A stretch of 64,000 nt of DNA from Occallatibacter riparius (GTDB taxonomy: Bacteria > Acidobacteriota > Terriglobia > Terriglobales > Acidobacteriaceae), in assembly GCF_025264625.1 (NCBI RefSeq), contig NZ_CP093313.1, positions 1,674,001 through 1,738,000 on the forward strand. Direction: 5' to 3'. A program made the position numbers and the translations under genes. Position 1 is the first letter of the stretch, and each line of letters begins with the position of its first letter. Of the stretch, positions 59,358 to 60,778 are shown piece after piece. The notes under the pieces were generated by a model, which had not been told where the DNA came from, searched no databases, and was given only the letters and a program-made list of their open reading frames with translations.

Positions 59358-59939
59358 ATGTCTGAAAACGAACTCAAAATTCCTGTCATAGAAGATCGCG
59401 ACGCGGCTGGCGATGTGGCCGAGGTCTACGACGTTTGGCGCGCCAAGTCAGGGCGGCAGAACATGCCGGGAATCCTGAAGTGCTTCAGCCATCGTCCCGA
59501 CTTCTTGCGCGACGTGATGAAGTTCGGAGACACCGTCCACTTCAGCGAAGGCCACCTGACCCGAAAGACCAAGGAAGCCATCGCGAGCTGGGTGTCGTAC
59601 CTGAACCGGTGTCCATATTGACTGGACTCACATGCCTACTTCCTGCGTGTTCAGGGAGCCGAAGAGACAACAGTACAAGCGATCGCCAGAGGCGATCTGG
59701 ATGGCGCGGGCCTGAGCCCGGCCGAGCGGGCGCTGCTCGATTACGTGACCAAGGTGACGCAGGCCGCCTACAAGACCACGCATGAGGATGTTCAGCAACT
59801 GCGCGAGCATGGCTGGACGGATCCGCAGATTGCCGAGGCCGTCTACATCACGGCGATGTTCGCCTTCTTTAATCGCGTAGCTGATGCATTCGGGATTGCG
59901 CCGCAGGGCTATCTGGAAATGAATGCGGTGACGAAGTGA
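59358..59939 (+). CDS. Selenoprotein: AhpD/carboxymuconolactone-decarboxylase-like, C-P-Y-Sec
   Basis: Bases 59358-59618 encode MSENELKIPVIEDRDAAGDV... through SYLNRCPY, then TGA at 59619-59621. The frame continues to a stop at 59939 without other stops: LDSHAYFLRVQGAEETTVQ and so on. The TGA falls on the second Cys of the C-x-x-C motif of AhpD-like proteins (CPYCxxxH), giving Cys85-Pro-Tyr-Sec88 and His92. In M. tuberculosis AhpD that Cys is the peroxidatic one, so Sec there makes chemical sense. A 7-bp hairpin with loop CGTGTT starts 17 bases past the TGA. The 193-residue protein is full length. It is followed 86 bases later by a second TGA-containing gene. Alternative: a nonsense mutation, less likely because both halves are intact. 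Confidence 0.87.
59639..59658 (+). promoter_or_regulatory. Candidate bacterial SECIS of the AhpD-like gene
   Basis: CTTCCTG (59639-59645) pairs with CAGGGAG (59652-59658) over 7 bp with one G-T wobble, loop CGTGTT. The stem starts 17 bases after the TGA. The apical loop contains GT, as SelB-binding loops usually do. Within coding sequence. Confidence 0.6.
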
Positions 59940-59943
59940 CGAT

Positions 59944-60018
59944 GAGTTCTTAGTTCGTAGTTCACAGAATGGACACTGCGGACCGGGAGCTGTGAACTAA
60001 GAACTACGAACTGAGAAC
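59944..60018. repeat. Inverted heptamer repeats between the two selenoprotein genes
   Basis: Left arm 59944-59967 holds AGTTCTT, AGTTCGT, AGTTCAC units; right arm 59990-60018 holds GTGAACT, AAGAACT, ACGAACT. The unit family differs in sequence from that at 16091 but has the same heptamer length and inverted layout, and follows the stop codon by five bases. Confidence 0.75.
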
Positions 60019-60025
60019 CAAAGAT

Positions 60026-60778
60026 ATGAGCACCACGACGGCAAACACGGTCCCCACACAGAAGCCGCGCAGGCGCTGGAAGCGCTGGCTGGGCACGATC
60101 GCCGCCGTCTGCTTCGTCGCGTGGGTCGGCTTCGTCGCCTACATCAACTGGGCCATGCACCAGCCGCCCGAGGCGTTTGCCGCCGTGATGGCAAAGATGC
60201 CGATGCCGGCGTATTTCGTGATTCCCTTCGAGACACTCTGGAATCCCGCCCGCGCCGGCCATCTCAACCCCGGCGATCAGGCCCCGTCTTTCACCGTTAA
60301 GCAGCTCCAGGGTGCTGAAGCCCCCGTCGAAATGGCGGGTCTGTGGAAGGACCGCCCCGTAGTTCTCGTCTTCGGGAGCTATACCTGACCGCCTTTTCGG
60401 CGGGAGGTTCCCGCCCTGAACAAGCTGGCAGCTCAGTACCAAGGCAAGATCGATTTCTACGCGATCTACATCCTTGAGGCGCACCCCACCGACGTCTGGC
60501 AGATGCAGTCCAACGTTCGCGACAACGTACTTTTCGCCACCCCCAAGAACGATCTTGAGCGGGTGAACGTGGCCAATGCCTGCTGGCGCAAGCTGGGAAT
60601 CAAATTCCCGGCCCTGGTCGACAGCATGGATAACCGCGTCGAAGGCGCCTACACCGGCTGGCCCGACCGCCTCTATCTAATCGACCGTGGCGGCCGCGTG
60701 ATCTTCAAGACCAAACCCGGCCCCTTCGGGTTCGATCCCGACGAGCTGGCCAAGGCGATGCAAGGCCTGCATCAGTAG
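60026..60778 (+). CDS. Selenoprotein: membrane-anchored iodothyronine-deiodinase-like protein
   Basis: The frame runs from ATG 60026 to the TAG at 60778 with one in-frame TGA at 60386-60388. The first half has an N-terminal helix (TIAAVCFVAWVGFVAYINWAM) and ends RPVVLVFGSYT; after the TGA it continues PPFRREVPALNKLAAQYQG, then FYAIYILEAHPTDVWQM and EGAYTGWPDRLYLIDRGG. The read-through gives FGSYT-Sec121-PPF, the catalytic motif of deiodinases (GSxTUPPF), and YIxEAHPxDxW, the other deiodinase hallmark. Vertebrate DIO also has an N-terminal anchor. A hairpin 10 bases past the TGA has loop AGGTT, very close to fdhF of E. coli. It is 250 residues. The thioredoxin-fold enzyme may reduce or dehalogenate; iodothyronine is unlikely to be its natural substrate. 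Translation start lacks a strong Shine-Dalgarno. Confidence 0.92.
60399..60415 (+). promoter_or_regulatory. Candidate bacterial SECIS of the deiodinase-like gene
   Basis: GGCGGG (60399-60404) pairs perfectly with CCCGCC (60410-60415), loop AGGTT. The loop begins 17 bases past the TGA; in E. coli fdhF the AGGUCU loop begins 18 bases past the UGA. Within coding sequence. Confidence 0.8.

Follow-up and report, generated by a model that had tools for sequence, protein, structure and literature searches.

Deiodinase-like selenoproteins of bacteria have been on record since a Sargasso Sea survey of 2005, which described selenocysteine (Sec) and cysteine (Cys) forms and suggested a redox role (PMC1088965), and the Global Ocean Sampling (GOS) survey of 2008 counted 22 Sec and 21 Cys forms (PMC2398784); the portions of two reviews covered here also list them, with the motif given as UxxC (PMC9312934, PMC13188914). 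No measured function for such a bacterial protein was found in the parts of the literature covered. Selenoproteins of the AhpD-like kind with a CxxU motif (TIGR01926 / COG2128) number 27 in the first survey (PMC1088965) and 299 in the second (PMC2398784), and operons that join Sec machinery to a client gene are described for fdhA, located beside selA-selB-selC (PMC1794560; PMC4807772). The gene described here, dio, encodes a deiodinase-like protein in Occallatibacter riparius, within a stretch of 64,000 nucleotides (contig NZ_CP093313.1, positions 1,674,001 to 1,738,000; hereafter the window). Sequence comparisons indicate that its in-frame TGA is very likely read as Sec, and we consider it somewhat better than an even chance that the product is a membrane-anchored selenoenzyme performing peroxiredoxin-like redox chemistry outside the cytoplasm, encoded beside an AhpD-like gene that also contains a TGA. 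The gene has the following features:

60026..60778, + strand: dio, deiodinase-like selenoprotein gene; 250 amino acids with the TGA read through, a predicted N-terminal membrane anchor at about residues 22-40 and a thioredoxin-fold domain at residues 79-250
60386..60388, + strand: TGA codon of Sec121 in the deiodinase active site FGSYT-U-PPF
60399..60415, + strand: predicted bacterial selenocysteine insertion sequence (SECIS) hairpin GGCGGG-AGGTT-CCCGCC, after the dio TGA

The dio frame (60026-60775) contains a single stop, the TGA at 60386-60388, in 250 codons, and the other two frames across the gene contain 8 and 5 stops in 249 codons. Before and after the TGA, G+C content at the three codon positions has the pattern of a gene (0.60/0.51/0.83 and 0.64/0.39/0.81). 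These counts bear out the single frame proposed in the original prediction, made from the sequence alone. The TGA falls at the Sec of the deiodinase active site and is followed by the second hallmark, YILEAHPTDVW, both as that prediction had described them. The protein belongs to the Pfam family T4_deiodinase (PF00837; E value 8.6e-30, 104.2 bits against a curated cut-off of 27), and scores 187.5 bits against the NCBIfam model NF038285 (deiodinase_rel), below that model's cut-off of 250. Comparison of the modelled protein with solved structures by VIA-align indicated a deiodinase-type thioredoxin fold, with Dio2 and Dio3 nearest and no solved structure listed closer than these, in a comparison that hardly tests the region before residue 77. 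The N-terminus bears six net positive charges followed by a hydrophobic helix (residues 22-40), and a membrane anchor with the catalytic domain outside is therefore predicted; distant relatives have, by eye, an apparent signal peptide (L030) or an apparent lipobox (L031). An automatic listing of open reading frames (ORFs) splits the gene into 60026-60388 and 60503-60778, as had been foreseen for gene callers.

A genome search for relatives of dio returned at least 574 encoding stretches, of which the best 80 were examined; all but one are titled acidobacterial, the exception being titled Nevskia soli. All of these 80 have TGA at the Sec column (79 by script and one, L108 with FGSYTU, by eye), every match extends to residue 236 or beyond, and 77 lack any further stop in the matched stretch, the remaining three (L072, L087 and L114) having one more each, two of them near the N-terminus. 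In a phylum sample of 396 genomes, 36 had a dio match at E <= 1e-15; there were 42 matches, 29 with an in-frame TGA and 13 without a stop, and the 30 loci kept from them have TGA (24) or Cys (6) at the motif. Two loci were left out of residue claims, L160 because it is cut off and L152, the TGA motif of which was seen separately. Cys forms of dio exist at 59-60% identity (P0006, P0009). A protein database search found 516 homologues, and the 120 listed have Cys (67), Trp (49), Arg (2), Gly (1) or Leu (1) at the Sec column. Because all 49 Trp homologues (e.g., P0003) are JGI proteins on contigs of 2.8 kb or less, this Trp is read as a mistranslated TGA; these 49 entries are apparently selenoproteins that have been systematically mislabelled.

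O. riparius is a soil bacterium whose single-contig genome measures 6,794,547 bases. The Sec machinery, for which the original prediction advised a search, is present: tRNA-Sec scores 70.4 bits against a cut-off of 47, with anticodon tca called by ARAGORN, and selD, selA and selB match at 387, 535 and 345 bits, all above cut-offs. In-frame stops in some of the SelA, SelB and SelD matches sit at match ends and are read as outside the genes proper. The tRNA-Sec gene adjoins selD, selA and selB at C1:6043022-6047562, 4.3 Mb from dio along the contig. A formate-dehydrogenase-like gene at about C1:362-366 kb (L173) has one TGA in its matched stretch, in the motif NQARIUHSASVPGLG, of which NQARIUH is that of FDH-N enzymes; its match to TIGR01591 is partial (151 bits, under the cut-off of 666), a hairpin (GGTGCCC-GGTCT-GGGCGCC, by eye) follows the TGA, and counterparts are present in three other genomes (G001, G008 and G009). 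This gene is a separate line of sequence evidence for the decoding of UGA as Sec in this genome, and together with the machinery and the TGA or Cys found in relatives when homologues are aligned, it supports the interpretation of dio as a real selenoprotein. Those refuting conditions of the original prediction that sequence data can address thus turned out in favour of it. Among the families searched, three selenoprotein genes were found: formate-dehydrogenase-like, AhpD-like and deiodinase-like. Table 2 of the deep-Sep paper, the only place where the main text, as far as available, names O. riparius, counts 3 known and 0 new selenoprotein genes, which it does not name, for strain DSM 25168 (GCA_025264625.1; PMC12013277). 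Since three genes were found here and three are counted there, the core of this finding has probably been published already, in the form of a count.

A perfect 6-bp hairpin with the loop AGGTT had been noted 17 bases beyond the TGA. It is present, with arms at 60399-60404 and 60410-60415 and the loop at 60405-60409; it is the loop that lies at the 17th base, and the stem begins 10 nt past the TGA. The hairpin is taken as real because it is conserved, in frozen codons and in changes of paired bases, and not on account of single-sequence folding, by which three of four stretches (including both AhpD stretches) were no better than shuffles. Across 83 loci, with known duplicates removed, the codons after the TGA are nearly invariant: +5 is CGG in 82/82, +6 GAG in 83/83, +7 GTT in 79/80 and +8 CCC in 71/83. 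By comparison, GTT is found in 8/81, 16/81 and 12/79 at three further conserved Val positions in these genes, and the Val codons of six window genes include 30 GTT among 169. In an alignment of 60 distinct sequences, which omits 11 of 71 distinct stretches from distant clades with the register shifted or unmatched, standard pairs fill 92.2% of the cells, and both-sided changes occur at five of the six pairs. None of 500 shuffles reaches any of five pairing measures, a result that is not a probability, the sequences being related. At locus L061 the entire stem has been swapped in the same place (GTCACC-AGGTG-GGTGAC). When 17 Sec and 6 Cys forms were contrasted by a free hairpin search against shuffles, the hairpins of the distant-clade Sec forms L154, L156, L161 and L162 scored well. 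By these comparisons among relatives, the predicted SECIS hairpin just after the UGA is under selection.

Immediately upstream of dio is an AhpD-like selenoprotein gene that the original prediction had missed, as it had the link with sel genes in relatives. The features of this region are:

59358..59939, + strand: ahpD-like selenoprotein gene (TIGR01926 peroxidase-related, CMD domain); 193 amino acids, redox motif CPYU
59619..59621, + strand: TGA codon for Sec88 of the AhpD-like protein
59639..59658, + strand: predicted SECIS hairpin CTTCCTG-CGTGTT-CAGGGAG of the AhpD-like gene, from the centroid fold, with codons frozen in 14 loci
59945..60012, no strand assigned: palindromic repeat between ahpD and dio, not part of the selenoproteins, resembling other sites in the genome

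The TGA of the AhpD-like gene lies in the sequence CPYULDSHAYF, in which CPYULDSH conforms to the CxxC/CxxU-H site; the protein scores 106.9 against TIGR01926 (cut-off 81.8), and among solved structures its best match is the AhpD-core protein 2prr. Codons +6, +7, +8, +10 and +11 are identical in 14/14 loci (duplicates removed) over the predicted hairpin, which is in the centroid fold of a 57-nt stretch that folds no better than shuffles (z 0.45). Ordinary ORF calling splits this gene too. The palindromic repeat has 23-nt arms that are 91% complementary and, with 15 matches in the genome (itself included, mostly partial), is therefore apparently a dispersed repeat. The gap between ahpD and dio is 89 nt here; in the 13 other paired loci, measured between the ends of the matches, it ranges from -18 to 52 nt.

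Gene order was compared among 15 close relatives, with dio proteins 60-72% identical and duplicates removed; contig ends conceal part of the order in L070, L071 and L072. The CPYU gene is directly upstream of dio in 12 of these, and sel genes are adjacent in 12, upstream on the same strand in 11 and divergent in one (Edaphobacter lichenicola, L074). The order selD-selA-selB-ahpD-dio, all in one direction, occurs in eight of the 15; no sel gene was found in the 16-21 kb covered for L058 and L073. With an AhpD profile built from sequences of the same dio loci, an AhpD-family gene was located just upstream on the same strand in 17 of 86 dio loci, with 12 other matches in 1.37 Mb. Fourteen of the 17 have CPYU, and the three of other kinds (L073 CRFC, L120 CPFU and L125 CKFC) are too few to lean on; that at L120:9324-9833, a different AhpD-family gene with about 27% identity, immediately precedes a gene for a deiodinase-like selenoprotein. 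Clustering of neighbours around dio, with clusters judged by eye from one representative each, disclosed nothing functional-looking that recurs beyond sel and ahpD; the largest clusters turned out to be antisense or out-of-frame shadows and fragments of dio. In 11/11 sel clusters examined, SelD has the sequence GGCASK, a Cys form at what we take to be the Sec/Cys site. The sel cluster of O. riparius itself (L052, C1:6039000-6052000) is distant from dio, and those of relatives mostly adjoin it. SelB of O. riparius is 45-53% identical to that of relatives; the idea that its sel cluster is a foreign replacement was dropped, as the SelB proteins of the relatives also differ strongly from one another.

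Among 36 same-genus genomes, including this one, selA above cut-off, dio with TGA and ahpD with TGA coincide without exception: seven genomes have all three, and the others have none of them. Where selA is missing from a same-genus genome, there is no clear dio homologue; AhpD relatives (E <= 1e-30) are present in six such genomes, all free of internal stops. In G002, a single contig of 99% completeness, no TGA was found in SelD, in 5 formate dehydrogenase matches or in 17 redoxin matches (a set that is not exhaustive, the genome's own dio being unlisted), so that ahpD and dio are the only clients found there among the families searched. Three other sel-positive relatives do carry a redoxin-family (PF00578) frame with one in-frame TGA (G008:C22:513760-514131, G007:C73:3118-3411 and G014:C271:34064-34438), possibly further selenoproteins. 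From the perfect co-occurrence in seven of 36 genomes, the order seen in eight of 15 relatives and the case of G002, it may be proposed that in these acidobacteria selC, selD, selA and selB travel as a cassette with a trans-membrane peroxide-defence couple, the AhpD-CPYU protein acting in the cytoplasm and the deiodinase-fold enzyme outside, and that this pair, not formate dehydrogenase, sustains Sec decoding in the lineage. We put this forward tentatively, as having well under an even chance of being correct: selA above cut-off is widespread in same-order (11/14) and same-class (9/10) genomes, but a TGA-containing dio is clear in only three of those 24 (G054, G058 and G059), which have no AhpD match in the 14-19 kb covered, and in O. 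riparius itself the dio pair is not beside the sel genes.

Active-site residues were counted in 130 relatives of the near clade. The proton-relay residues of Dio2 are Ser127, Thr129, Tyr157, Glu160, His162 and His182, according to the available part of the source (PMC11592359). Five of the six are kept, as Ser118 (129/130) and as Thr120, Tyr148, Glu151 and His153 (each 130/130); the sixth, His182 of Dio2, aligns with Pro173 (His in 9/130). The positions on the thyronine side, with structural roles taken from the same part of that source (PMC11592359), are all changed: besides His182, Arg275 of Dio3 and Lys241 of Dio2 align with Pro231 (117/130), though the adjacent residue 230 is Arg or Lys in 97/130, and Phe224 of Dio2 aligns with Pro213 (130/130). 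Tyr119, two before Sec121, is found in 126/130, in agreement with the expectation that the nearby Cys of DIO1 is missing; that proximal Cys bonds the catalytic residue of DIO1, as the portion covered reports for a Sec-to-Cys enzyme (PMC9141512). Cys186 is invariant (130/130). With the relay residues kept and the thyronine-side residues changed, deiodinase-like catalysis on another substrate is therefore expected, most likely on peroxides, and the dio product is probably an extracytoplasmic selenol redox enzyme of the peroxide type, as far as sequence can indicate. The N-terminal helix would anchor the protein, placing the catalytic domain in the periplasm, where the selenolate of Sec121 would attack its substrate, a peroxide or some other oxidised or polarised compound, helped by the Ser118/Thr120/Tyr148/Glu151/His153 network retained from deiodinases. 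Thiols would then reduce the oxidised selenium, Cys186 being a candidate for the resolving residue, and the AhpD-like partner may act on peroxides in the cytoplasm via its CPYU/His site.

Several observations tell against this account of a SECIS-dependent, peroxide-type enzyme with an AhpD-like partner. Taken alone, the dio hairpin is modest: 77 of 2000 shuffles score equally well, and the folding energy is matched by 56 of 200 shuffles in one stretch (z -0.57) and by 9 of 200 in another (z -2.04). In a control with the 3' arm displaced by +1, both-sided cells rise from 10 to 15 and the covariation score from 0.189 to 0.227, although only 64.4% of cells pair, against 92.2% in the true register. 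Sec forms L151, L153 and L155 have poor hairpins in the scanned span and the hairpin of one of the six Cys forms, L169, equals those of several Sec forms, such that the contrast is not clean. Rfam at gathering thresholds detected no SECIS family in the whole window, only one tRNA (tRNA-Leu by ARAGORN), which says little because, to our knowledge, the Rfam cover of bacterial SECIS is thin. Of the 28 usable loci of the phylum sample, 19, Sec forms included, have F, L, S, A or M in place of Cys186, so its resolving role is not family-wide and it is a candidate for the near clade only. The distal Cys of animal deiodinases falls at another column (Phe194 here), and that of DIO1 showed no kinetic role, as the portion of the source covered reports (PMC9141512). 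The CPYU gene is absent upstream of dio in three of the 15 close relatives. No obvious export signal was found in the AhpD-like protein; the membrane may thus separate it from the dio product, and the two do not have to cooperate. Finally, we infer the peroxidase activity of dio from its fold and its neighbour only.

One alternative is that the TGA is an ordinary stop codon, with the downstream half of dio a decayed or separately started gene, as the two pieces of the automatic ORF listing might suggest. We give it almost no credence: the TGA is kept in the best 80 loci, with matches running to residue 236 or beyond and 77 of them free of other stops, Cys takes the same column in homologues, and a clear dio is missing from same-genus genomes that lack selA. 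If the TGA is decoded as Sec, the product might instead be a ResA/TlpA/CcmG-type thiol-disulfide oxidoreductase with periplasmic protein disulfides, not peroxides, as its substrates. ResA consists of a membrane anchor plus a periplasmic domain, the layout predicted here; after the deiodinases, the dio model matches DsbE, ResA, CcmG and AhpE-type structures at similar Z (14 to 15.6), and the NCBIfam ResA subfamily model matches at E 2.5e-6, but far under its cut-off (27.5 versus 170). A CxxC pair defines that group, whereas dio has no UxxC motif, its active site being UPPF with Phe124 in 128/130, and the deiodinase matches are clearly better than the oxidoreductase matches; we regard an oxidoreductase of this kind as rather unlikely.

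A true reductive dehalogenase, in which the selenolate would strip iodine or bromine from halogenated soil aromatics as animal deiodinases do from thyronines, would agree with the five relay positions kept (S118, T120, Y148, E151 and H153) and with Dio2 and Dio3 as the nearest folds. It seems improbable to us, given the replacement of the thyronine-binding and relay positions (Pro173, Pro213 and Pro231, though residue 230 beside the last is Arg or Lys in 97/130) and given that no halogen-related neighbour recurs among the clusters examined, for which one representative each and the first residues only were considered. The peroxide-type selenol enzyme remains the reading that we prefer.

The description of bacterial deiodinase-like proteins as scarcely characterised in the original prediction was fair, yet the family has been catalogued among bacterial selenoproteins since 2005, as the available part of that survey attests (PMC1088965). 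In the open-licence literature covered, including the available portions of PMC1088965, PMC2398784, PMC9312934 and PMC13188914 (its operon section too), no mention of an AhpD-deiodinase pair was found. Within the reach of searches of that literature, what is new is the pair itself, its location closing the sel cluster in relatives, and the fact that across the genus it occurs together with selA. The function is directly testable, O. riparius DSM 25168 being a culture-collection strain with a conserved partner selenoenzyme and a small selenoprotein set. The sel-ahpD-dio order in relatives bears on the question of which selenoprotein makes a lineage retain the Sec system, where the part of the literature covered has until now focused on formate dehydrogenase (PMC1794560). 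Both genes are easily overlooked in databases, being split by ordinary ORF calling, with 49 of the 120 listed homologues of dio apparently stored with Trp at the Sec column.

Compared with the animal enzymes DIO1-3 (PDB 4tr3, 9h48), dio shares the thioredoxin/peroxiredoxin-like fold, FGSxT-U-PPF, EAHP-D-W, five of the six relay residues and an N-terminal membrane segment, but is only 26-30% identical over structure alignments and differs at the thyronine-side positions; it lacks the proximal Cys (Tyr119) and a Cys at the distal-Cys column (Phe194), having the invariant Cys186 instead. The upstream gene, like known AhpD-like selenoproteins, exceeds the TIGR01926 cut-off and has a CPYU motif, and differs from them in its deiodinase-like partner. 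As in the fdhA operons, Sec machinery genes are found beside a selenoprotein gene, but the clients of the sel clusters in relatives are ahpD and dio, not fdhA, with SelD a Cys form in 11/11 clusters. With the bacterial deiodinase-like selenoproteins, so far as the available parts of the sources describe them, dio has in common PF00837, the active-site Sec, a SECIS just after the UGA and Cys homologues, whereas its motif is UPPF and that of the reviews is UxxC (PMC9312934, PMC13188914). The 2005 and 2008 surveys were marine, whereas the near clade of dio is acidobacterial, predicted to be membrane-anchored, marked by the invariant Cys186 and encoded, in relatives, beside ahpD and the sel genes.
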